A stretch of 35,452 bases of DNA, taken from positions 1 through 35,452 of the forward strand of contig NZ_RCFQ01000031.1 of NCBI RefSeq assembly GCF_003665155.1, given 5' to 3'. The DNA comes from Mariprofundus sp. EBB-1. Lineage in GTDB: Bacteria > Pseudomonadota > Zetaproteobacteria > Mariprofundales > Mariprofundaceae. A program made the position numbers and the translations under genes. Positions 3,459-35,452 of this stretch are shown here, one piece after another (positions within the stretch are counted from its first letter, which is position 1; the number at the start of each line of letters is the position of its first letter). The notes under the pieces are model-generated. The model saw only the letters and a program-made list of their open reading frames with translations, searched no databases and was not told where the DNA came from.

Positions 3459-3865
3459 GTGTTCCTCTTTGTGGCAGGAGATGTGTTTTTAACTGCATCT
3501 CTTTCATGGCGCGGAGTGTAGCCAAATTAGTCTGATTTATGAATAGACCAGGATAATCGCTTTAAAATATTTAAAATCGTTTGCCGGCCGAGCATGTGCA
3601 TCACTGATTTAACTCAGGGTATCTCACTCTCGTAAACTTAGTTCACCTTGCACCCCAGGGTGCTTTCTCTGGCTTCGCCATTCACCTCGTCGCAGAGAAA
3701 TCGCAACAAGGACCAGAAAAACAATATTTATCGGAGAGCAATGGATGTGGATTGCAGTCGTTTTTGTCTTTACTTTGCGGAACTTTGCGTCCTCTGCGGT
3801 GAAACGCATGTTGTCTGTATTCATGCAGTCATTGCGTGGCAGAGGGCAAACCGTAGAGTGCTCGC
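3459..3865. repeat. 407-bp intergenic space holding an interspersed palindromic repeat with nested insert
   Basis: There is no convincing gene between prfC and dnaX, which are divergently arranged. The right part (about 3641-3812) is an imperfect palindromic element. Its right arm (about 3771-3804) carries CTTTGCG-ACTTTGCGTCCTCTGCGGTGAAA, as also seen after dnaX and after lpdA. The left arm is interrupted by a 46-bp insert (3641-3686) made of two small hairpins (3650-3663 and 3671-3679). The same insert recurs in opposite orientation at 17890-17935. Promoters for prfC and dnaX should lie here, but I could not pick convincing boxes. Confidence 0.7.
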
Positions 3866-23327: not shown

Positions 23328-23401
23328 TGGGGGATCGTCTAATGGTAGGACAGCGGTCTCTGACACCGTCAATCGTGGTTCGAATCCACGTCCCCCAGCC
23401 A
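23328..23401 (+). tRNA. tRNA-Gln (anticodon CTG)
   Basis: This is a 74-nt tRNA with encoded CCA. The acceptor TGGGGGA pairs with TCCCCCA, discriminator G. The D arm is TCGTCTAATGGTAGGACA, and the anticodon loop CTCTGAC within CGGT/ACCG gives CTG for CAG codons. The T arm is CGTGGTTCGAATCCACG. It marks the border between the housekeeping region and the AT-richer island, as tRNA genes often do. Confidence 0.97.
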
Positions 23402-23431
23402 TTTTAAAAGCTATATATAGCAACAAATAAT

Positions 23432-23467
23432 AAGAGTCTTCGAGGAATCGGAGGCTCTTTTTTTATG
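23432..23467 (+). terminator. Rho-independent terminator after tRNA-Gln
   Basis: The stem AAGAGTCTTCG with CGGAGGCTCTT (one or two mismatches, loop AGGAAT) is followed by a run of seven or eight T. It lies about 30 nt beyond the tRNA-Gln CCA end. Confidence 0.8.
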
Positions 23468-23880
23468 GTTTGGTTTGCAGTTTGGTTTGCGTAAATTAAA
23501 AGCATTGTATTTGAATGGCAATTTATCACTCTGCCGACTATGAGGTGGGAGTATTATACAAGCTATGGGTTCTAAAAGGTTTTTCTTGCAATTCCCGCAG
23601 AATCCCGTATAGTGTTTTGCATTGGCTGTATGGTTCTTACAGGAAGAGCCTCTGAAACCCCTACCAGTATATATGGGTGAAGTAGTAACGTGATGATAGC
23701 TACTTCTACAGTGTGGCGCTGCAAAGCGGGCTGAGGCTGTGAAAGCACACTTAAAGTAAGCACACTAAATAAGAAAGCCTTCGAAGAGAAAATCGAAGGA
23801 CATCATTAAAAGCCTGTAGTCGCATCAAGCGGGGCTTTCCGAATTTGGAAACATGTCATACTCTATTAACGAGTCTTTTC
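23468..23880. other. non-coding start of the island with direct repeats, hairpins and iteron-like motifs
   Basis: No gene is supported in these 413 bp. Two tandem copies of GTTTGGTTTGC (23468-23478 and 23480-23490) open the segment. Further right are the inverted repeats GAAGTAG/CTACTTC (23679-23706, loop 14) and CCTTCGA/TCGAAGG (23778-23799, loop 8). Between these are two iteron-like copies of GCACACTWAA, 15 bp apart (23745 and 23760). Beside a Rep-type endonuclease this looks like a replication or control region (inference). Confidence 0.5.
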
Positions 23881-24168
23881 ATGCTCCATCATTCAACACA
23901 ACCATTTTATACACATGAATACATAGCTGACATCATTGGCAAAAAAGCAAAGACATTGCTTAATGTCATAACGTCGAAAAAACCAGAAGACAATCGCAGA
24001 AAGAAACTATTGCCACCATTTATCAAAATTGCAGGCAAATTCGTAGTTTCTGCTACTGACTTGGCTGCATGGTTGCAGCAACAGCCTGTTGTCGCTGGCG
24101 CTATCGAAGCCCCTGCTCGTAATAGCAGGGGCGGCAGGCCAAGGAATACACCCACTAATTACAAATAA
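23881..24168 (+). CDS. small putative helix-turn-helix DNA-binding protein
   Basis: This is about 95 residues, basic. A first helical part (THEYIADIIGKKAKTLLNVI) is followed by KKLLPPFIKIAGKFVVSATD and LAAWLQQ near residues 42-67. The latter resembles the C-terminal wing and last helix of small regulators such as PrtN or AlpA/excisionase-like proteins (a pattern match by eye only). I chose the ATG at 23881; an in-frame TTG at 23845 would add 12 residues. It sits between the candidate origin region and the rep gene, so a role in rep control or excision is plausible. A 9-bp hairpin (24109-24132) lies within its coding sequence. Confidence 0.5.
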   Translation: MLHHSTQPFYTHEYIADIIGKKAKTLLNVITSKKPEDNRRKKLLPPFIKIAGKFVVSATDLAAWLQQQPVVAGAIEAPARNSRGGRPRNTPTNYK

Positions 24169-24169
24169 T

Positions 24170-24195
24170 AACAGAGAGCAAAACTGCTCTCTGTT
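24170..24195 (+). terminator. perfect hairpin after the small HTH gene
   Basis: An 11-bp perfect stem (AACAGAGAGCA with TGCTCTCTGTT, loop AAAC) starts 2 nt after the stop codon. Only three T follow, so it is either a weak terminator or a structural element. Confidence 0.55.
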
Positions 24196-24311
24196 TCCAG
24201 CCTGCCTTATAAACAGTTTATTAATATTTTATTTGAACAGAAAGTGATGTTTATTTAGCGCAATGTAATGGTTATGGGTCAAGCGGTTTTGCTTTCTCTT
24301 CGGAGAAGGAC

Positions 24312-25628
24312 ATGGCTAATAAAAGCACCACCAAAAATACAATTGAAAGGCACACAGGCCATCCTGAGCCTCTTCTTGGGTTATCAGGCAGGGAATTACA
24401 GGAAATGGCTTTGCAGCAGGCTCAGCTTGGCACAAGCCTACGGTCTCAAGACCCTTCAGTTCACCTGCGTAAGTTGTACGAGCTTAAAAAAATCCAAGAA
24501 GAAACTGAATCGATAAAATTTAGGGCTGTGAAGAAATGGTGTTCATTGCGAACTCTTAAGGAAAGCCTGCAACAAAAAGAACGGTTCGATTCAATTAACT
24601 TAAATAAGTTTCTTATCGCCGATAGTGGTGATGGCATATCAATGAAAGATGTTGTTGATGAGTCAAAAGAGAATTTTGTATGGGAAGCTTTAGAGCGGGG
24701 TAATGCGCTCAATAAAATCCGTGAAGAAAAAAACTGGATAGCAGCTTCAGTAACTCTGACTTGCTGTGCTTTCATGCATCATTCAAGCAGGCGTTGGAAT
24801 GGCAGTACCCCGATTGAACAACAAGAACATTTGCAGCGTTGTTGGGAGAAATTTCGTTCGGCACTATTAAAGCATGGCATAGTGGCTGGTGAAGACTGGC
24901 TCGCACTAAAAGGTGCGGAACCACATCAAGACGGAACTGTACACTGGCAGCTATGCATCGTTGCCAGCAAGGTACACATGAAGGTTATCTCAAAGTTATT
25001 AAAGAAATATTACCTTTATGACCATCACCCAAATGAATGGGGAGCTAAAAAGCGACGTGTTAAGATTAAGGTTGCAGAAAGTGGTGAAGATGCAAACAAG
25101 ATTGCAAACTATGTTGCCAAGTATGCATTGATGAGCCACTTGCCTGAATTCATGCATAAAACTGAAGAGCATATTGATAATGCTCGAAGGTATGCTGCAT
25201 GGCGGAAGAGATGGAAAATCAGAGGGTTTTCGTTCTGTGGATTGGCACCGGTAGGGCTTTGGCGTGAGTGTCGAAGCAGGCAGTTTGATTTAGACAACGA
25301 AATGGATTTGGTGAAGTACGCACAAGCAGGTGATTATTATGCATTCCATAATGAGTGGAAACATCTTGGTGGTCGTTCAGAAGTAAAGTCTATCCATATA
25401 GAGTACATCAATAAATACAGTGAGAAAATAAAGAAATGTATCGGTCATTTCATTAAGCATTCAGCCGAGGTTATTGCAGTAAAAGTCCGTAACGCAGTCA
25501 TAAAAACTATTAATGCTGCAAAGACATTGGTTACACTTGTAGTAAATAAACCAAGTAGGCAAGAAGATTCAATTGAGGCTGTGATTTCACAGAAAGAATC
25601 GATTAATGACGATGAATTACCATTTTGA
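24312..25628 (+). CDS. HUH replication endonuclease, phage P2 GpA-like (Rep)
   Basis: This 438-residue protein matches the GPA family of rolling-circle initiators. The motif-II block EPHQDGTVHWQLCI (E203 to I216) corresponds to the usual PHxDGTPHWH pattern. Here the second metal-binding His is Q213, so it reads HUQ. The catalytic block NKIANYVAKYAL carries two tyrosines four residues apart (Y267, Y271), as in phiX174 gpA and P2 gpA. The protein is predicted to nick a specific origin, become covalently linked to the 5' end and start rolling-circle replication. A strong GGAGAAGGA lies just before the ATG. Its AT-rich sequence and its position after a tRNA and beside hairpins and iterons suggest an integrated phage, satellite or plasmid-like element. 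No capsid or integrase gene is seen. Confidence 0.78.
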   Translation: MANKSTTKNTIERHTGHPEPLLGLSGRELQEMALQQAQLGTSLRSQDPSVHLRKLYELKKIQEETESIKFRAVKKWCSLRTLKESLQQKERFDSINLNKFLIADSGDGISMKDVVDESKENFVWEALERGNALNKIREEKNWIAASVTLTCCAFMHHSSRRWNGSTPIEQQEHLQRCWEKFRSALLKHGIVAGEDWLALKGAEPHQDGTVHWQLCIVASKVHMKVISKLLKKYYLYDHHPNEWGAKKRRVKIKVAESGEDANKIANYVAKYALMSHLPEFMHKTEEHIDNARRYAAWRKRWKIRGFSFCGLAPVGLWRECRSRQFDLDNEMDLVKYAQAGDYYAFHNEWKHLGGRSEVKSIHIEYINKYSEKIKKCIGHFIKHSAEVIAVKVRNAVIKTINAAKTLVTLVVNKPSRQEDSIEAVISQKESINDDELPF

Positions 25629-25800
25629 TACCGAACTGACTGCTCTTAATCCAAATAGTTATTGTGCTGCCAGTTGGCGGCAGGAGTTGCTTTTGAAGAA
25701 AAACAGTATGGAAAACAGGGCTTTTCTATGGCGTGATAGGTTTTCTATGCGGCCATCACATGATGATGGGATTCTACAAATATTGATGAATGATTTATAA
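25606..25800 (+). CDS. small hypothetical protein overlapping the rep end
   Basis: A 64-codon frame starts at an ATG 23 bp before the rep stop, in another frame, and runs to TAA at 25800. A second ATG lies two codons on. No family is recognised and there is no membrane segment. The overlap would allow translational coupling with rep, but nothing else proves expression. Confidence 0.3.
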   Translation: MTMNYHFDTELTALNPNSYCAASWRQELLLKKNSMENRAFLWRDRFSMRPSHDDGILQILMNDL

Positions 25801-25857
25801 ACAGCTAAAAAGAGCATATCGTAAAGCCACTTTTAACAAGTGTGGGATGGGGATTTA

Positions 25858-27363
25858 ATGGCAACTGAAAACGGCAACTTTGAAGCAAGTCTGTTTAAGA
25901 CGGCTGATAAGCTACGCAAGAATATTGATGCAGCAGAGTATAAAAATGTGGTTCTTGGCCTCATCTTCCTTAAATATATTTCTGATTCATTCCAAGAGCT
26001 GTATGAGCGATTGGAAGCAGATGAATACTCTGACCCTGAAGATAGGGATGAATACATTGCTGAGAACTGCTTCTTTGTGCCTGAAATCGCACGTTGGAAG
26101 AACTTGCAAGCCAAAGCCAAACTGCCGGAGATTGGTGTCGCTATTGATGATGCCATGAGCATCATTGAAAAAGAAAATGCGGAGCTGAAGCATGTTCTCC
26201 CCAAGGTGTTTGCCAAGCCGAACCTTGATAAAGCCTCTTTGGGTCAACTGATTGATGTTATTTCTGACATTGAGCTTAAGGCTGCCAATGAAAACTCCAA
26301 AGACCTGCTTGGTCGGGTGTACGAATATTTCTTGGGTGAGTTCGCCAACGCCGAAGGTAAGAAGGGCGGTCAGTTCTACACGCCAAAATCTATCGTAAAA
26401 CTCATGGTTGAGATGATTGAGCCATACAAAGGCAGGGTCTATGACCCTGCATGCGGTAGTGGCGGCATGTTTGTCATGAGTGAAAAGTTTGTCGAAGAGC
26501 ATCAAGGCAACATTCAGGACATTACGATTTACGGGCAGGAGTCTAACCAGACGACTTGGAAGCTCTCCAAAATGAATCTGGCTATCCGTAATGTGAACTC
26601 ACAATTCGTAGCATGGAATACTGAAGGTACTTTCTTAAAGGATATGAACCCTGATTTAAAAGCGGATTACATCCTTGCCAATCCACCATTCAACCAATCG
26701 GAGTGGGGTCAGGATATTTTGCAGGAAGATGGACGCTGGAAATATGGTGTTCCACCTGCTGGCAATGCCAACTTCGCATGGATGCAGCACATGCTTTATC
26801 ACTTGGCACCTAATGGCGTGATGGCAACGGTATTGGCAAATGGCTCTCTAAGCTCCAACACATCGGGTGAAGGCGATATTCGCCAAGCCATTGTGAAAGC
26901 CGACTTGGTTGATTGCATCGTGGCTCTGCCAAAACAGCTTTTTTATAACACAGGTATTCCAGCAACAATCTGGATTCTACGCCGAGGAAAAGAAGTTCGC
27001 CGTGGTGAGACCTTATTCATTGATGCTTCAGAAATGGGCTTTATGAAAGACAGGGTTCACCGTGAGTTTGCCCCTGAAGATATCGAGACGATTGAGCAGG
27101 CTTACCATAGCTGGAGAAAGAGTGATGGCTATGAGGATGTTAAAGGTTTCTGCAAGTCTGCAACGCTTGCCGATATCGAGAAACATAGCTTTGTGCTTAC
27201 GGCAGGGCGATATGTAGGCATTCCTGATGAAGAGGATGATGGTATCCCTTTCGAAGATAAGATGAGGGATTTAACAACCACTCTTGCTGCCCAAATGCAG
27301 AAAGAGAAAGAACTGGATGAGCAAATCAAAACGCAACTTGCCAAGATTGGATTTGAGCTATGA
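25858..27363 (+). CDS. hsdM: Type I restriction-modification system, methyltransferase subunit HsdM
   Basis: This roughly 501-residue N6-adenine methyltransferase subunit has an N-terminal helical HsdM_N domain (about 10-140, with VVLGLIFLKYISDSF). The catalytic domain has the AdoMet motif DPACGSGGMF (196-205) and the NPPF motif (275-278). KGGQFYTPKSIVKLMVEMI precedes the first motif, as is standard. It works with HsdS to methylate the target and with HsdR for restriction. ATG 25858 is preferred, with GGGG five bases upstream; GTG 25840 is also in frame. It is the first gene of the operon; the next gene begins 148 bp later. Confidence 0.96.
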   Translation: MATENGNFEASLFKTADKLRKNIDAAEYKNVVLGLIFLKYISDSFQELYERLEADEYSDPEDRDEYIAENCFFVPEIARWKNLQAKAKLPEIGVAIDDAMSIIEKENAELKHVLPKVFAKPNLDKASLGQLIDVISDIELKAANENSKDLLGRVYEYFLGEFANAEGKKGGQFYTPKSIVKLMVEMIEPYKGRVYDPACGSGGMFVMSEKFVEEHQGNIQDITIYGQESNQTTWKLSKMNLAIRNVNSQFVAWNTEGTFLKDMNPDLKADYILANPPFNQSEWGQDILQEDGRWKYGVPPAGNANFAWMQHMLYHLAPNGVMATVLANGSLSSNTSGEGDIRQAIVKADLVDCIVALPKQLFYNTGIPATIWILRRGKEVRRGETLFIDASEMGFMKDRVHREFAPEDIETIEQAYHSWRKSDGYEDVKGFCKSATLADIEKHSFVLTAGRYVGIPDEEDDGIPFEDKMRDLTTTLAAQMQKEKELDEQIKTQLAKIGFEL

Positions 27364-27386
27364 ATAATAGGTTAACTCTTTCAAGC

Positions 27387-27419
27387 GTTGAACTGGTCAC
27401 AAATTGTGACCGGTTCAAC
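27387..27419. promoter_or_regulatory. 33-bp near-perfect palindrome, candidate operator
   Basis: GTTGAAC at 27387 and GTTCAAC at 27413 are the outer arms, with an inner perfect 15-bp palindrome GTCACAAATTGTGAC (27396-27410). Only one symmetric position pair is mismatched. The inner motif fits GTCRCAAWTTGYGAC, found again at 27473-27487 and 27721-27735. It lies between hsdM and the ORF6N gene. Confidence 0.6.
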
Positions 27420-27472
27420 AGCGTGATGGATTGGAAATCACATCTTATTATATCCAATGATAATAGTTTGTG

Positions 27473-27487
27473 GTCGCAATTTGCGAC
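27473..27487. repeat. 15-bp palindrome, second copy
   Basis: GTCGCAATTTGCGAC is a perfect palindrome about a central base, 25 bp before the ORF6N start codon. The 33 bp from here match 27721-27753 inside the gene at 28 positions. Confidence 0.65.
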
Positions 27488-27511
27488 TGCAAGTGGCTAT
27501 GGTGGTGTCTC

Positions 27512-28393
27512 ATGAGCCATGAAGTGAGTATTATCAATAGCAATGAGCTTCAGAGTAAGATTTTCACTATCCGTGGCTTGCAGGTGATGATGGATAGCGA
27601 TTTAGCAGAACTTTATGGAGTGGAAAACAAACGCCTTAATGAACAGGTGAAAAGAAATATAGAACGATTTCCTGAACAGTTTCGTTTTCAACTTACCCAA
27701 GAGGAGCTTGAAAACTTGAAGTCGCAATTTGCGACCTCAAGTGCGCATGGTGGGCGTAGAACTCTACCCTATGTGTTCACAGAACAAGGCGTGTCTATGC
27801 TTTCGGCAGTGCTGCGGAGTGACACAGCCATCAATGTCAGTATTCAAATCATGGATGCGTTTGTCGGTATGCGGAAATTCATCTCCAACAATGCTGTAAT
27901 TTTCCAACGCTTGGACAGTATAGAGCAGAAGCAACATATCACTGACACCAAACTGGATAAGGTCTTTGAGGCCATCGAGGCGAAGGATATCAAACCTGAG
28001 CAAGGTATCTTTTATAATGGGGAAGTTTTTGACGCCTATGTGTTCGCGGCCGATTTAATCAAGAGTGCCAAGAAGTCGATTGTATTGATTGATAACTATG
28101 TCGATGAAACTACGTTGACCCTGCTTACCAAACGTAATGCAGGTTGCACTGCCACCATTTATACGCATACCTTTGGACAGAAGTTACAACTCGATTTAGA
28201 AAAGCATAATGAACAATATCCAGCAATCACAATCAAAACATTCAAAAAATCCCATGACCGTTTTTTGATAATCGATGATAATGAAGTTTATCATTTCGGT
28301 GCATCCCTCAAAGACTTGGGTAAGAAGTGGTTTGCATTCTCCAAATTTGATAAAGGGGCGTTGGAAGTGTTAGGGAAGTTAGGTCATGAGTAG
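27512..28393 (+). CDS. ORF6N-domain protein with C-terminal PLD-like domain
   Basis: This roughly 293-residue protein has two parts. The N-terminal ORF6N domain (about 8-95) is clear from IRGLQVMMDSDLAELYGVE, NEQVKRNIERFPEQFRFQL and LPYVFTEQGVSMLSAVL; this is a DNA-binding domain known from phage and restriction loci. A short coiled segment (about 115-150, HITDTKLDKVFEAIEAKD) follows. The C-terminal domain resembles phospholipase-D-type folds: SIVLIDNYVDETTL, then SHDRFLIIDD (H248) and VYHFGASLKDLGKKW. Only one HKD-like half motif is visible, so nuclease activity is unproven. The gene lies inside the hsd operon and overlaps hsdS by 8 bp. Control of the operon or an accessory effector role are both possible. 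The start ATG at 27512 follows the palindromes. Confidence 0.85.
   Translation: MSHEVSIINSNELQSKIFTIRGLQVMMDSDLAELYGVENKRLNEQVKRNIERFPEQFRFQLTQEELENLKSQFATSSAHGGRRTLPYVFTEQGVSMLSAVLRSDTAINVSIQIMDAFVGMRKFISNNAVIFQRLDSIEQKQHITDTKLDKVFEAIEAKDIKPEQGIFYNGEVFDAYVFAADLIKSAKKSIVLIDNYVDETTLTLLTKRNAGCTATIYTHTFGQKLQLDLEKHNEQYPAITIKTFKKSHDRFLIIDDNEVYHFGASLKDLGKKWFAFSKFDKGALEVLGKLGHE
27721..27735. repeat. 15-bp palindrome, third copy, inside the ORF6N coding region
   Basis: GTCGCAATTTGCGAC recurs exactly here, in the codons for K-SQFAT of the ORF6N domain, 248 bp after the second copy. It could be an intragenic operator or simply coding sequence that the upstream copy derives from. Confidence 0.65.
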
Positions 28394-29681
28394 TTTGCCT
28401 GAGGGGTGGATTAAAACTTCTCTTGGGGAAGTAACTTATTATGCCAGTGGAAAAATGCCTATCAGTGAAATTGATTTAGACAATTATATTTCAACTGAAA
28501 ACTTGTTGGTAGATAAAATGGGAGTAACACAAGCTGCAGCCTTACCTAAGGTGTCTAAGGTCAATGCTTTTGATGTTGGCGATACTTTGTTTTCAAACAT
28601 TAGAACATACTTCAAGAAGGTTTGGTACAGTAATAAAATTGGTGGCTCATCAAATGATGTTTTGGTGTTTCGGCCAATTGATAATGAGCAACTAAATAAA
28701 AAATATCTTTACTATCTGATTTCAAATGATGGATTTATTGAGTACACGGTCATTACCGCAAAAGGTACAAAAATGCCTCGTGGTGATAAGGATGCTATTA
28801 AACAATATCCGTTAAGACTTCCCACTCTTTCCGAACAAAAGGCCATTGCGGATATGCTGTCTTCTTTTGATGAAAAAATAGAGCTGCTGCGTGCGCAAAA
28901 CAAAACATTGGAAACTCTTGCCCAAACGGTTTTTAAAGAGTGGTTTGTGAATTTCAATTATCCCGATGAGACTGGTGAGATGGTCGATTCCGAACTCGGC
29001 GAAATCCCCAAAGGCTGGCGGATAGGTTCTTTTGATGAGGTGATTGAATTCAGTAATGGTTATGCTTTTAAGTCAAAGGAGCTTATTAAAGAGCCTGCTA
29101 ATAATAGCTTTGCTGTTTTTAAAATGGGGCATATTAAAAAAGGTGGTGGATTTAACCCATCAAAGACCAAAGATTACATAGCTAAAGAAAAATGCGTTAA
29201 CCTATCAAGATTTGTTTTAAAGAAAGGTGATATTTTGATGTGCATGACCGATATGAAAGATAGCACATCTTTACTTGGTCATACGGCATTAATGTTTGAT
29301 AATGAATATTATATAGTGAATCAACGAGTTGGCTTAATTCGAGCAAGAAATGAAGTAAATATTGACTACCCTTGGCTTTATATACTTACCAATAGCATTG
29401 ATTTTATTTCTGACTTAAGGAAGAGAGCAAATAGTGGTGTACAGGTTAATTTATCTACTTCCGAGATTAAGAATAGCAGAGTTATCATTCCAAATATTCA
29501 AACTAATATTGAGTTTGATAAACTGGCTAAGCCGATATTTGAAAAAATACAAAACAATGCAGTGCAAATTCAAAGTCTTTCAAAGACCAGAGATGCTCTT
29601 TTGCCTAAATTGATGAATGGACATGTGCGAATTCATGAGTTCAGCAGAGAGGGCGCAAATGACCAGAGGATTGCACTATGA
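28386..29681 (+). CDS. hsdS: Type I restriction-modification system, specificity subunit HsdS
   Basis: This 431-residue DNA-recognition subunit has two target recognition domains. TRD1 (about 1-150) is followed by the central conserved helices (LPTLSEQKAIADMLSSFDEKIELL...LETLAQTVFKEWF, about 138-185). TRD2 starts at IPKGWRIGSFDEVIEFSNGY, about 208-385. The C-terminal conserved region has QSLSKTRDALLPKLMNGHVRI. The two recognition domains set the bipartite target sequence, which cannot be read by eye. The sequence is clearly more AT-rich than hsdM. It overlaps the previous gene by 8 bp and the next by 4 bp (ATGA), so all three are coupled. Confidence 0.95.
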   Translation: MSSLPEGWIKTSLGEVTYYASGKMPISEIDLDNYISTENLLVDKMGVTQAAALPKVSKVNAFDVGDTLFSNIRTYFKKVWYSNKIGGSSNDVLVFRPIDNEQLNKKYLYYLISNDGFIEYTVITAKGTKMPRGDKDAIKQYPLRLPTLSEQKAIADMLSSFDEKIELLRAQNKTLETLAQTVFKEWFVNFNYPDETGEMVDSELGEIPKGWRIGSFDEVIEFSNGYAFKSKELIKEPANNSFAVFKMGHIKKGGGFNPSKTKDYIAKEKCVNLSRFVLKKGDILMCMTDMKDSTSLLGHTALMFDNEYYIVNQRVGLIRARNEVNIDYPWLYILTNSIDFISDLRKRANSGVQVNLSTSEIKNSRVIIPNIQTNIEFDKLAKPIFEKIQNNAVQIQSLSKTRDALLPKLMNGHVRIHEFSREGANDQRIAL

Positions 29682-31786
29682 CTCTTGATGTAAGAGGAAG
29701 TCTTAAAAACACTAAAATTAATCAAAATTATTATGTCGTGATTGATGAGCTTCTTTCTAATGCAATTGATTCATATCTTATACGAAAAGAAACAGATGCA
29801 CATGTTTCTGGATTGAGGGTCAGTTTTCAGGTGGAGCTTTTTGAGAAAGAATTGTTCGATGAAGAGTTAGACCTGAAAATTACTTGTGTGGATAACGGCG
29901 CTGGTTTGGGCAACCAAGAGACGAAAGCTTTTGTCACAAAAGACACCTCTTACAAAGATGATTTGGCTATCACAGGAATTGGTAAATGTAAGGGGTCTGG
30001 TCGTGTGCAATTCTTCCATTATTTCAGCAAGTTGGAAATAGATAGCATATACAACTCAGATGGAATATTTAAACGGAGAACTTTAAGGGTTGATGATAGC
30101 ATCAAAGAGATAAATGAAGGCTCCTTTATACTTGAGGATACCCTTGAAACTGATACGAAAACGAGAATAACACTCGATATTATAAAAGAAGAAATTTATA
30201 AAAAATGTTTTTTAAACATGGATTTAAAAGAGAAATTTTCTGCTGAATCATTAAGAAAATATGTGATGATATCTTTTCTTCAAAGGTTGGTTGGCCTAAA
30301 GCAGGTTCTCGGTGACTTTTGCATAGAATTTAAAACACTGTGCGGTGATAAAGAGGCCATTCAACAACTGCATCGAGAAGACCTTCCTGAGGTCACGACA
30401 AGGAAAGATGTTAATATTCCTTATAGCAGAGAAACGGAGTCGTTACTGTCTCCAGAGCTGTGTAAAATATCACATTACAAGCTAAATGAGTCTGATTATA
30501 AGCTGTCAGGAAGTACAATTGCCCTATGTGCAAAATCATCCATTGTAAAATTAATAACTAAAAATTATCTAAAGACTAAAACATTAGAAAACAACCCTAT
30601 TAATGGATTTTATCATATCATTTTAATCGAAGGTGACTTCTTAGATAATCATGTGAATGAGCAACGTGATGATTTCAATTTACCTATAGATATTGAATCC
30701 ACTGAATCTTTTTTAGAAAGGAGGATTTCATTTCAGGAAATATATGATGCTTTAGATGAAGATATAATGGCAATGCTGACACCTCCTGATTGGGATAAGC
30801 AGGGAATTATAAATACTGTTGGTAATAAGTATGGTATCTCATCCAGTATGATTACAGAAGTTAATGTGCGTGTTCACTATGGAGATACAGAAGAAGGTAT
30901 AGTGCAGCGGGTTTTGAAGAAGTATCAAGATATAATTATTCAGGATACATCTGAAATATTTGATGTTCGGTCAGAGATTCTAAACTCCGACCCTAATAGT
31001 GATGAGTTTAGAGATAAGGTAAATGAGCTGGCTTGGAAATATACTTCTTCGCTAAAGAACATTGATATGGCGAATTTATCTCAAGTTGTTGTGCGCCGTA
31101 CTGCGATTCTTGAGATATTATCATTGGCGATAAATAAGCGCTTAAATATTCAGAATGCTGATGATAAGAAACGACAGGAAAATGAAAAAATTATTCATAA
31201 TATTTTCTTTCCTATGAGAAAAGATAGTGAAGAAATAAAAGACCATGATATTTGGATACTTAATGAAGAATATCATTACTATGACTATATCGCTTCAGAC
31301 CAACTGTTATCTAAAATGTCATGGGATGGAAGTGAGAACCTGTTTGATAGTGATATTGATGATGAACTATCTAAAATCCTTCAAGAAAACTATGAGAATA
31401 ATTCGGGGAAACGCCCTGATATAGCTATTTTCAATAATGAAGGCTCTGTGATAATTATTGAGTTTAAAGCACCGGATGTTGATATGGATAGGCATATTGG
31501 TGACTTGATGGAGTATGCTCAGTTATTGGCAGCTAAATCTAATGGCAAGTTGAAAAAGTTTTATGGGTACCTTATTGGTTCAAGTTTGAATCCAAATAGG
31601 TTGACGAACTATACACGTTTTCCGAATGGTCAAGGTTGGTTTAATACTTCCGGAGTTATAGAGCATTCTACAGGTCAAAGGGTGGGTGAACTTTATTCTG
31701 AAATACTGTTTTACGATGACATTGTTGACCGAGCAAATAAACGGCTGGATGTGTATAAAAAGCGTCTAAACTTGGATTTGGGCTAA
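29678..31786 (+). CDS. GHKL ATPase fused to a PD-(D/E)XK nuclease domain
   Basis: This 702-residue protein sits between hsdS and hsdR. The N-terminal Bergerat-fold ATPase shows the N box VIDELLSNAIDSY (E24, N28), G1 motif VDNGAGLG (D72, G74, G76) and G2 motif TGIGKCKGSGRVQFF (about 99-113), a MutL/Hsp90/MORC-like set. A long middle part (about 180-560) has no motif I recognise. The C-terminal domain has a nuclease core, RPDIAIFN (D581) then VIIIEFKAP (E595, K597), followed by a QLLAAK helix near 612. This suits ATP-gated DNA cleavage or clamping in defence. MutL/MORC-like ATPases in restriction operons are known from comparative genomics, but their mechanism is little studied. The gene overlaps hsdS by 4 bp and is 12 bp from hsdR. 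It is strongly AT-rich. Confidence 0.85.
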   Translation: MTLDVRGSLKNTKINQNYYVVIDELLSNAIDSYLIRKETDAHVSGLRVSFQVELFEKELFDEELDLKITCVDNGAGLGNQETKAFVTKDTSYKDDLAITGIGKCKGSGRVQFFHYFSKLEIDSIYNSDGIFKRRTLRVDDSIKEINEGSFILEDTLETDTKTRITLDIIKEEIYKKCFLNMDLKEKFSAESLRKYVMISFLQRLVGLKQVLGDFCIEFKTLCGDKEAIQQLHREDLPEVTTRKDVNIPYSRETESLLSPELCKISHYKLNESDYKLSGSTIALCAKSSIVKLITKNYLKTKTLENNPINGFYHIILIEGDFLDNHVNEQRDDFNLPIDIESTESFLERRISFQEIYDALDEDIMAMLTPPDWDKQGIINTVGNKYGISSSMITEVNVRVHYGDTEEGIVQRVLKKYQDIIIQDTSEIFDVRSEILNSDPNSDEFRDKVNELAWKYTSSLKNIDMANLSQVVVRRTAILEILSLAINKRLNIQNADDKKRQENEKIIHNIFFPMRKDSEEIKDHDIWILNEEYHYYDYIASDQLLSKMSWDGSENLFDSDIDDELSKILQENYENNSGKRPDIAIFNNEGSVIIIEFKAPDVDMDRHIGDLMEYAQLLAAKSNGKLKKFYGYLIGSSLNPNRLTNYTRFPNGQGWFNTSGVIEHSTGQRVGELYSEILFYDDIVDRANKRLDVYKKRLNLDLG

Positions 31787-31798
31787 ATTGGTGTTTGC

Positions 31799-34700
31799 AT
31801 GATAGACTTGAACGAAGATGCCATTGAGCAGAACCTAATCGACCTGTTACAACATCAGGGGTACACATATTTTAATGATTCAACCATTGCACCCAATAGC
31901 GACAACCCGCAACGTGATGCCTTTGATAGTGTTGTATTGGAAAAACAGTTTAATACTTCTCTGAGGAAGCTGAACCCTGACCTGCCTGAGCCAGCTTTGC
32001 ATGAAGCCTTTCAGCATGTACTTCACCTTGGCTCAAATGACATCATGACCAACAATGAGAAATTCCACCAAATGCTTTGTGATGGTGTGACTGTTGAACA
32101 TTTTCAGGATGGGCAGTCTGTTGGTTTGCAGGTGAAGCTGATTGATTTCGTAGACCTTCAAAATAATGACTTTTGGGCGGTGAATCAGTTTGTCATCAAA
32201 GAGAATAACCAGTCCAAGCGCTTGGATGTTATTCTGTTTGTGAATGGCCTTCCTTTGGTGGTGATTGAGCTTAAAAGCGCGACCAGTGAAAAGGCGACAT
32301 TAGAACGAGCTTATACGCAGATTCAGAACTATAAGACGGCCATCCCCTCTATTTTCTTTTACAATGCGCTGAGTGTTATCTCAGATGGACTGGATGCACG
32401 AACCAGTACTTTGTCTGCTCCATATTCACGATACCTTGCATGGAAATCACCAACGAAAGAAGAGAATGGAATTTTGCCTGAATTACAAATTGTGGCAGAA
32501 CAGATGTTTAAGCCTGATGTCTTATTGAAATTGATTCGTTTTAATACCGTTTTTGAATCTGAAGAAATCAAAGATGATAAAACTGGCATTTTATCACTGG
32601 TGAAGATTAAGAAGGTTGCTGCTTATCATCAGTATTATGTTGTTGAAAAGGCTGTGCAGTCTACTTTGCGAGCTATTAAAACGGTTGAAAGTGAAGCGCA
32701 TGAAGACCCTGCCCACTATGGCTTGGCATCGGTTCAAGACCAGCCAGAGGGTGACCGTAAAATCGGTGTGGTCTGGCATACGCAAGGCAGTGGAAAATCA
32801 CTTTCGATGGTGTTTTATGCGGGGCGCTTGGTCGTCGAGCCAGCTATGAAAAATCCGACCCTTGTTATTCTTACCGATAGAAATGATTTGGATGACCAGC
32901 TTTTTTCCACGTTTGGCAATTGCACATCACTTTTAAGGCAAACACCTGTTCAGGCAAATAATCGAGAACATTTAAAGGAGCTGTTGACCGTCACTGGTGG
33001 CGGCATTGTATTTACGACCATTCAGAAATTTTACCCTGAAGATGGTAGTGAAACATTTGATGCATTATCAGACCGAACCAATGTTGTGGTTGTAGCTGAT
33101 GAAGCACACCGCAGCCAATATGGATTTACAGGCAAGGTCGATAAAGAAGGAAATATTAAATATGGCAATGCCAAACATTTAAGGGATGCCTTGCCTCACG
33201 CTTCGTTTATCGGCTTTACCGGAACACCGATTGAGAAAGAAGATAGGGATACACAGCAAGTCTTCGGTAACTATATTGATGTGTATGATATTGCTCAGGC
33301 AGTAAAAGATGGCGCTACTGTTCCACTCAGCTATGAAAGCAGGCTGGTGAAGATTCGATTCAATGATGAAGCCACTAAGAAGATTGATGCTTTAGTCGAT
33401 AGCGTTGAAGGCGCAACGGATATTCAGCTTGAGAAATCCAAAAAGAAGAATGCACAAATCAATGCCATCGTAGGTCACCCTGACCGACTTGCAGATATTG
33501 CAAAAGATATAGTCAGTCATTTTGAAGCAAGGCAGGAGGTCTTTGAAGGCAAGGGTATGATTGTCTGCATGACACGCCAGATTGCAGTAGATTTGTATGA
33601 ACAAATTGTTGCGCTGAAACCTGAATGGCATGATATCGACTTGAATAAAGGCGCAATCAAGGTGGTGATGACCAGCTCATCGGATGACCCTGCAAGCTTC
33701 CAGCCTCACCATACCAACAAGAAAGATAGAAAAGCTCTGGCAATCAGGCTTAAAGATGCACATGACCCGTTACAGTTGGTGATAGTACAATCCATGTGGC
33801 TGACAGGTTTTGATGCGCCACCACTGCATACACTTTATGTTGATAAGAAAATGCAGGGCGCTGGTTTGATGCAGGCCATTGCAAGGGTAAATAGAGTCTA
33901 TAAAGATAAACCGCACGGCTTGATTGTTGACTATATTGGCATCGGCCAAGACTTACGCTCGGCAATGCAGGTATACGTTGATAGTGGTGGTCAGGGTGAA
34001 GTCGCTCCTGATATTAAAGAAGTCATTGCTGGCATGCTGGCAAAATTCGAAGTTGTTCAGCAGATGTTTCATGGTTTTGAATATCAGACATATTTTAAAG
34101 CTGAAACGGGCGAAAAATTGAAGGTGTTGCTTGCGGCTCAAAACTTCATCTTGAATGATGACAAGCTAAAAGACCGTTTCTTATCCGAGGTGACAGCACT
34201 CTCTAAATTGTATGTCATGGCTGTGCCAAGCTATGAATCAGAAACTATCAAAGATGATATGGCATTTTTCCAAGCGATAAAATCACGCATAAATAAGTTT
34301 ACACCTACTGGCGGTAAAACAGATGCTCAAGTTGATTCAGCCATCAAGCAGATTGTGGATGATGCATTAAGCAGTGATGGGGTAGTTGATATCTTCGAAG
34401 CGGCTGGAATTAAAGCACCTTCACTGGATATTCTGTCTGAAGAGTTTTTGCTTGAAGTGAAAAATATGGTTCACAAGAACCTTGCCTTTGAGCTGCTTAG
34501 AAAGCTACTCAATGACGAGGTCAAAGTCAGAAAGCAGAAGAATATGACGCAGGGTAAAAAGTTTTCTGAGATGCTTTCATCTGTGATTAAACGCTATCAC
34601 AACAATCAGATTGATACGGCTCAGGTTATTAAAGAACTCTCGGATATTGCCAGAGATATGAAGCTGGAAGATAGCAAGGCGCATGACTTAGGCTTAACGC

Positions 34701-34978
34701 CTGAGGAGTATGCTTTCTACTCTATCCTTGCTCAGAATGACTCCACCTCATTTTTAGAAGACCACAAGATGAAAGAGCTGATTCATTTGATTGTCGATAT
34801 CATCAGGAAGAACGCTACTGTGGATTGGAATAAGCGTGACGATGTAAAAGCAAAGCTTCGGCTATTAGTTAAGAAAGTGCTGATGCGCTATGGCTATCCA
34901 CCTGATTTAGCCAAGATGGAAGCCGACAGAGTGCTTGAGCAGAGTGATTTGTTGGCGAGTGAATTTTCAGCCAGCTAA
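31799..34978 (+). CDS. hsdR: Type I restriction-modification system, endonuclease/translocase subunit HsdR
   Basis: This 1059-residue motor and nuclease subunit starts with a PD-(D/E)XK endonuclease (D143 in RLDVILFVNG, E157 and K159 in VVIELKS) and a Q-motif-like QIQNYK just after. The SF2 helicase core follows: Walker A HTQGSGKSLS (K333), VILTDRNDLDDQ, DEAH box VVADEAHRSQ (D434-H437), motif III FIGFTGTPIE and motif VI MQAIARVNRVY near 695. A helical C-terminal domain (about 800-1059) binds the methylase. It translocates DNA and cuts unmodified DNA at a distance. All motifs look intact, so the system is probably active. It is the last gene of the operon. Confidence 0.97.
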   Translation: MIDLNEDAIEQNLIDLLQHQGYTYFNDSTIAPNSDNPQRDAFDSVVLEKQFNTSLRKLNPDLPEPALHEAFQHVLHLGSNDIMTNNEKFHQMLCDGVTVEHFQDGQSVGLQVKLIDFVDLQNNDFWAVNQFVIKENNQSKRLDVILFVNGLPLVVIELKSATSEKATLERAYTQIQNYKTAIPSIFFYNALSVISDGLDARTSTLSAPYSRYLAWKSPTKEENGILPELQIVAEQMFKPDVLLKLIRFNTVFESEEIKDDKTGILSLVKIKKVAAYHQYYVVEKAVQSTLRAIKTVESEAHEDPAHYGLASVQDQPEGDRKIGVVWHTQGSGKSLSMVFYAGRLVVEPAMKNPTLVILTDRNDLDDQLFSTFGNCTSLLRQTPVQANNREHLKELLTVTGGGIVFTTIQKFYPEDGSETFDALSDRTNVVVVADEAHRSQYGFTGKVDKEGNIKYGNAKHLRDALPHASFIGFTGTPIEKEDRDTQQVFGNYIDVYDIAQAVKDGATVPLSYESRLVKIRFNDEATKKIDALVDSVEGATDIQLEKSKKKNAQINAIVGHPDRLADIAKDIVSHFEARQEVFEGKGMIVCMTRQIAVDLYEQIVALKPEWHDIDLNKGAIKVVMTSSSDDPASFQPHHTNKKDRKALAIRLKDAHDPLQLVIVQSMWLTGFDAPPLHTLYVDKKMQGAGLMQAIARVNRVYKDKPHGLIVDYIGIGQDLRSAMQVYVDSGGQGEVAPDIKEVIAGMLAKFEVVQQMFHGFEYQTYFKAETGEKLKVLLAAQNFILNDDKLKDRFLSEVTALSKLYVMAVPSYESETIKDDMAFFQAIKSRINKFTPTGGKTDAQVDSAIKQIVDDALSSDGVVDIFEAAGIKAPSLDILSEEFLLEVKNMVHKNLAFELLRKLLNDEVKVRKQKNMTQGKKFSEMLSSVIKRYHNNQIDTAQVIKELSDIARDMKLEDSKAHDLGLTPEEYAFYSILAQNDSTSFLEDHKMKELIHLIVDIIRKNATVDWNKRDDVKAKLRLLVKKVLMRYGYPPDLAKMEADRVLEQSDLLASEFSAS

Positions 34979-35315
34979 AACCTCAGCTACTTTCCGCAGT
35001 CAAAACCTTTATGGCGTGATTGCTTTCAGAAATTATATGCAATATGAAAACCTGTGCTGTTAGTGATATACAGAAACAAGAACCTTGCATTAAATATACA
35101 AGTATATTATAATGTACTTATGTATTAGTGATTAGTGTGATTAATGCAGCAGATTTCTAATCCCACTCGGAAGACTGCCTTTTTATATTTATTTATTTGT
35201 TTATTAGCAAAATAGGTACTCACTACCTAATTATCTCGCCGTTGGCGATATATTTAGGCGTTCGCCCGAAGGGCTGTCCTGTTTACCTATTTCATATAAC
35301 GGTAGAGGTATAAAA
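34979..35315 (+). promoter_or_regulatory. intergenic leader with promoter and hairpin set
   Basis: This 337-bp region has no gene. It contains the promoter at 35085-35113 and a run of short hairpins at 35213-35274: TAGGTA/TACCTA, TCGCC/GGCGA, GGCG/CGCC and GCCC/GGGC. The last two share bases and cannot form together. The segment would be the 5' leader of the gene starting at 35316. Confidence 0.5.
35085..35113 (+). promoter_or_regulatory. near-consensus sigma70 promoter
   Basis: TTGCAT (35085-35090), exactly 17 bp of AT-rich spacer, and a perfect TATAAT (35108-35113). AAGTA and TACTT flank the -10 box as an inverted repeat, a possible operator. The start of transcription would be near 35120, giving a leader of about 195 nt. 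Confidence 0.75.
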
Positions 35316-35452
35316 GTGTCTAACGAAACAGCAGGTACATTAAGAGCAAGGCAAGCAGCGAAAGATGCAAAGCGTGAAGAGCGAAAAGCAATTCGAAGTT
35401 CAATGAAAGCAGTAAAGAAAGCTTTCGCAGTTATGCGGGTAAAAAAACTTAA
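35316..35452 (+). CDS. small basic protein, cut by the window end
   Basis: The frame begins at GTG with AGAGG seven bases upstream and stays open for 45 codons to the window edge, with no stop seen. The product is very rich in Lys, Arg and Ala (ARQAAKDAKREERKAIRSS, then MKAVKKAF), with a helical pattern and no membrane segment. No family is recognised. Nucleic-acid binding is possible from composition alone. It lies behind a strong promoter and a structured leader. Confidence 0.55.
   Translation, partial: MSNETAGTLRARQAAKDAKREERKAIRSSMKAVKKAFAVMRVKKL

Follow-up and report, generated by a model that had tools for sequence, protein, structure and literature searches.

The window analysed here is the entire contig C25 (35,452 bases) of the genome of Mariprofundus sp. 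EBB-1, a marine iron oxidiser with a short-read assembly (PMC6763651) of 2,877,040 bases in 63 contigs. Its forward strand carries, behind ftsX, a tRNA-Gln gene (ctg; 23328..23401; ARAGORN, Rfam) followed by a segment with a terminator (23406..23467), a pair of direct repeats (23468..23490), a gene for a small HTH protein (23845..24168), a gene for a gpA-family Rep (24312..25628), a 64-aa frame of uncertain reality that overlaps the end of Rep (25606..25800), and a type I restriction-modification (RM) operon (25840-34978; Pfam, PADLOC). A last small frame, recognised from sequence and translation, is open at the contig end (35316..35452). The tRNA-Gln, HTH-like gene, Rep, overlapping frame and RM operon named in the preliminary description are thus all present (ARAGORN/Rfam, Pfam, PHROG).

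The tRNA-Gln gene is the insertion site of foreign DNA. We compared the region behind ftsX across 15 genomes of the genus, which have tRNA-Gln (11 genomes), tRNA-Pro (three) or tRNA-His (one) at this place. In all 11 tRNA-Gln relatives, DNA similarity to the window stops at 23401, the last base of the tRNA; the four genomes with tRNA-Pro or tRNA-His have no stretch matching the window. Among the relatives listed, the unoccupied tRNA-Gln site continues with a different terminator and then with chromosomal genes, which in G019:C11 and G013:C86 resemble hflK, hflC and tyrS (named by eye). The GC content, taken in 1-kb steps, changes from 47-51% before tRNA-Gln to 34-46% behind it. An insertion at the tRNA 3' end, with unoccupied sites of the kind that the preliminary description had proposed to look for in related genomes, marks this DNA as an island. 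One relative, G019, has two versions of the ftsX/tRNA-Gln site (L006/L058 and L028/L029; contigs C47 and C11) and is therefore possibly a mixed assembly. Its ftsX protein is 99% identical to that of the present genome on C47 and 86% identical, over the last 29 residues, on C11; C47 stops 117 nt past the tRNA, with a segment resembling the one beside the tRNA in the window.

The right flank of the site in this genome is contig C52, whose base 1 corresponds to 149 nt past the tRNA end of G019:C11. The right border of the island therefore lies in the gap from C25:35452 to C52:1, and as C25 ends inside the island, the latter is at least 12 kb long. The earlier statement that the module lacks structural and integrase genes holds for the visible part, where the 12 kb contain no structural genes; it does not extend to the island in general, because the contig ends inside it and the flank is another contig. 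Among nine integrase-family matches in the genome, none lies at a fitting contig end (judged by eye), and the tRNA-Gln end is not repeated anywhere in the assembly. Searching the terminal 34980-35452 against the other contigs of the genome gave no meaningful match, and the sole match across the class is a 131-base stretch in G044. No primase family was found in nine frames scanned from the HTH gene to the contig end.

The segment next to the tRNA is also present behind further tRNAs in the class. It contains a terminator-like hairpin with a T-run (23432-23459), just before the stretch first singled out (23468-25800), and is matched, in full or in part, at 10 further loci in the class; an eleventh match, to another part of the query, was excluded. 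A tRNA adjoins the segment at eight of the nine counterpart loci scanned with ARAGORN, while at the ninth, and at the unscanned tenth, a tRNA 3' end is visible in the sequence. Directly behind the segment stand the two repeats GTTTGGTTTGC with a 12-bp step, a pair beyond chance within its 75-nt stretch (p 0.007); the repeat scan gave, in addition, one 12-nt pair 15 bp apart. Of the "hairpin and iteron region" described before, the hairpin stands, and an iteron array was rejected because the repeats occur in two copies only. We applied the same direct-repeat test to 10 loci (window included, L121 left out), using dinucleotide-keeping shuffles with a plain shuffle as fallback. A direct repeat past the T-run was found at p < 0.01 at 4 of these 10 loci, versus none of 11 unoccupied sites; the test failed at five loci (p 0.17 to 0.95) and gave p 0.063 at one more. 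From sequence, we infer that 23406-23467 may be an attachment end, with the repeats behind it as putative arm-type integrase sites. Some loci with a similar segment run straight into chromosomal genes, and these may be scars or plain terminators. A segment of the same type is also seen in G037 (L131:1-5179), where a cut tRNA end and the segment directly precede a type I RM-like operon whose HsdM-like gene is a different one. A structured RNA before the HTH gene was considered and rejected: the 316 nt there fold no better than shuffles (z -0.71), Rfam matches the tRNA only, and phages and plasmids have no DNA match.

The HTH gene encodes 107 aa from a TTG start, with an alternative ATG start possible at 23881. 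Its product resembles AlpA/excisionase-like proteins, matching PF12728 HTH_17 at E 1.4e-4 and 22.5 bits, which is under the Pfam cut-off of 27, and phrog_66 (‘excisionase and transcriptional regulator’) at E 0.0039. The 438-aa Rep is assigned more firmly, with matches to PF05840 Phage_GPA (E 9e-22; 77.9 bits vs a curated cut-off of 31.4) and phrog_91 (E 6.6e-37). It retains the metal-binding motif of the gpA family with one substitution, EPHQDGTVHWQ having Q for the third HWH position, together with the two tyrosines (Y267 and Y271) aligned with those of P2. All 293 matching phage records are below 60% identity (23.5 to 28.0% among the matches listed), and no close relatives occur in genome contigs or viral contigs. 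A two-row alignment search found one viral contig (27%), and the nearest relative found is a fragment in G037, 36% identical. No solved structure matches Rep, and its single-sequence fold was useless (mean pLDDT 38.1). The overlapping frame has no Pfam match, and its best PHROG match is at E 0.27.

Complete islands with gpA-type Reps exist elsewhere in the phylum, where 35 of 397 genomes have a Rep match. We inspected the surroundings of 14 Rep-bearing loci and tested the five with a tRNA near Rep for end duplications. Duplications of the tRNA end, about 35 to 51 bp long, were found at four (L132, L134, L136 and C7 of the present genome); L133, the fifth, is truncated where its contig ends. 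A gpA-type Rep and a tyrosine integrase occur together in all four complete islands (the integrase judged by eye in L132, as was its small HTH), and inspection by eye revealed no structural genes in any of them. A Pfam run on their proteins (nine from L134, five from C7, three from L136, two from L132) identified integrases and gpA-type Reps in L134, L136 and C7, HTH_17 in L134 and L136, and no structural families. Read from the tRNA, their genes follow an order unlike that in the window. The C7 element (L044:8482-14790; 6.3 kb) has a gpA-type Rep, a P2-type nick motif, an integrase and a tRNA-Leu end duplication, and also encodes a 543-aa protein without a Pfam match. Islands with both a gpA-type Rep and a tyrosine integrase, and without structural genes, occur in more than one family of a single phylum, this iron oxidiser included. 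Other gpA-type Rep loci resemble PM2-like or P2-like prophages (L138, L140; by eye).

The nick site of P2 lies inside gene A (a feature in the P2 record), and passages in two studies describe a nick site in the A-type gene that is conserved among P2-like phages (PMC8537503, PMC3986222). We built a 24-nt nick-motif model on seven sites. The motif scores at least 26.6 at each of 37 additional gpA-family Rep loci, against a maximum of 15.3 in 100 shuffles; five of the 37 are training places (L004, L084, L086, L087, L099) and two places are counted twice (L092/L134, L089/L136), so that 30 different places remain on which the model was not trained. Individual inspection of 18 rep genes placed it on the strand of the gene every time and never on the opposite one. 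At L132, L133, L134 and L137 the motif is out of frame or past the rep stop, which makes it a DNA signal and more than a by-product of a protein motif; in P2 it is in frame, read as PRSPVNNC. Such a motif makes replicons of this kind easy to find. In PM2 (L083), the P2-type nick motif is at 3507, in the same gene as the ‘cleavage site’ of the record (2253-2254), which was dropped as a second nick site since it is off the motif position.

The visible island has no P2-type nick motif. Its best-scoring site, 25533-25556 of the minus strand, reaches 7.6, which means nothing by itself, being below the shuffle median of 8.1. This top match of the whole visible island nevertheless adjoins the place that the alignment gives for the motif, and the G037 contig with the Rep fragment scores best at the equivalent position of the same strand, with 15.3, a value level with the shuffle maximum. 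In a codon alignment of Rep with that fragment, a 27-nt stretch at the site ranks first in conservation among 187, with 22 of 27 positions identical and third positions identical in 8 of 9, versus 38% overall. An earlier codon comparison (29 of 69 identical residues share their codon; 5 of 14 for Leu/Ser/Arg) was too weak alone. Compared with one form of the family motif, the site agrees at 15 of 24 positions read backwards and 14 of 24 forwards, so that an inverted orientation is tentative. Motif model and codon alignment together suggest a diverged origin-like site where the family has its nick motif, and judging from sequence alone the origin of this Rep may have changed. It is conceivable, if on balance doubtful, that this Rep represents a gpA-type sub-lineage in which a diverged inverted copy at the equivalent gene position, reading ACTTGG-N12-AAGTGT on the minus strand, took over the role of the nick motif. 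In that case, rolling-circle copying would proceed in the direction opposite to that of the rep gene, and neither P2-like phages nor the other gpA-type element of this genome would cross-react with the replicon. The exceptional Rep offers a test case for joint change of a Rep and its origin.

The RM operon behind the module comprises HsdM (25840..27363), an ORF6N-domain protein (27470..28393; PADLOC candidate PDC-S05), HsdS (28386..29681), a 702-aa protein (29678..31786) and HsdR (31799..34978), all on the plus strand, with HsdM, HsdS and HsdR recognised by both Pfam and PADLOC. The 702-aa protein has an HSDR_N-like part and a weak match to a GHKL-type ATPase (Pfam), and no PADLOC match. It recalls the GHKL ATPases described inside RM operons, and its relatives are found in a Ghiorsea MAG (72%), Gilvimarinus and two Massilia (46-48%). 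A 38-nt direct repeat (82%) has one copy at the start of the ORF6N gene (27468-27505) and the other within its first part (27716-27753). Across the class, 48 of 78 genomes encode a relative of HsdR, with protein identity reaching 97%. At four loci (L159, L160, L162, L164) a similar operon stands without the HTH gene or Rep, with DNA pieces 70.5-97.6% identical to those of the window and HsdR 80.5-90.9% identical; the similarity sets in either where HsdM begins or further inside it, and none of the four genomes has a Rep match. Matches at L161, L163 and L165 cover HsdR only, whole or in part, and L145 duplicates L164. The RM operon therefore appears to be a separate cassette that circulates apart from the module. 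The preliminary description had suggested that the module may carry the operon as cargo, and had itself named separate arrival as counter-evidence; by that standard the suggestion is weakened. This is a warning that adjacency alone is insufficient to call neighbouring defence genes ‘cargo’.

We consider it probable, with modest confidence, that the window holds the left end of an integrative, integrase-type, satellite-like island in tRNA-Gln; the unoccupied sites and the four complete islands make this the most likely explanation. The earlier idea of a rolling-circle mobile element or satellite is retained as to the foreign insertion, the rolling-circle-type Rep, the small regulator and the lack of a structural gene, and loses its iterons. 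We infer that the island has, or once had, an integrase. A tyrosine integrase would recombine the island at the tRNA 3' end, assisted by the AlpA-like HTH protein as a directionality factor and by the arm sites beside the tRNA. Once the island is excised, the gpA-type Rep would nick its origin, the circle would be copied by rolling-circle replication, and a helper phage would probably provide for its spread. The type I RM operon would be a cassette with its own history. Against an integrase-type island speak the sub-threshold HTH match and a gene order unlike that of the complete islands.

Other observations against it are shared with a different account, in which the left end of a decayed island (regulator and Rep) lies in a hot spot, an unrelated RM cassette was added later, and no unit is mobile today. 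Such accretion is the less likely course, yet it carries appreciable weight: the usual origin motif of the family is absent, neither an integrase nor a second tRNA end is seen in the assembly, similar repeat-bearing segments occur at tRNAs followed by chromosomal genes, and similar RM operons lack the module at four other loci. However, the HTH and Rep frames are intact, Rep keeps both tyrosines, and the right end of the island is simply not assembled. We regard it as improbable that a P2-like or PM2-like prophage lost its structural genes and left this remnant. Its Rep family is that of such phages, as the 293 matching records attest, but their low identities, the 12 kb free of structural genes and the existence of complete islands with such Reps and no structural genes all argue otherwise. 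An element free of integrase, integrating via Rep or a host recombinase as the preliminary description had left open, would fit the visible part; the insertion exactly at the tRNA 3' end, and the tyrosine integrases and tRNA-end duplications of all four complete islands, speak against it and leave it very little probability.

Searching the literature by title and abstract opening, we found no description of a solitary gpA-type island; a lone P12-like gene is mentioned in Vibrio vulnificus in part of one report (PMC1950889). Like P2 gpA and PM2 P12, the Rep described here has the PF05840 domain and two spaced tyrosines at the aligned place. It is shorter (438 aa; P2 gpA has 762 and PM2 P12 635 codons with stop), carries HWQ instead of HWH, and lacks the nick motif of both. 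The C7 element shares with the island a tRNA site, a gpA-type Rep and, by eye, the lack of structural genes; it differs in its Rep (28% identical), its usual nick motif and its integrase beside tRNA-Leu. The PICMI satellites of Vibrionaceae, as outlined in sections of PMC10803314, are likewise small islands without structural genes that have an AlpA-type regulator (PF05930 or PF12728 in their model), a replication gene and defence genes, in some cases a type I RM system. They use a primase and a site beside fis, neither of which is found here; the present island has a gpA-type Rep (PF05840) and a site at tRNA-Gln behind ftsX, with no integrase in view, and its HTH protein matches PF12728 below the cut-off. 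The tmRNA islands I23/I44/I55 of Pseudomonas, which according to parts of PMC12595487 are spread by a jumbo phage, resemble the island in their RNA-gene site, an AlpA towards one end and defence genes. As portrayed there, they have an inovirus Gp2-like gene near the AlpA end, an integrase at the other end and no transfer genes. They differ from the island in their site, a tmRNA, and in a replication-type gene of another family, and the end that carries their integrase corresponds to the one unseen here.
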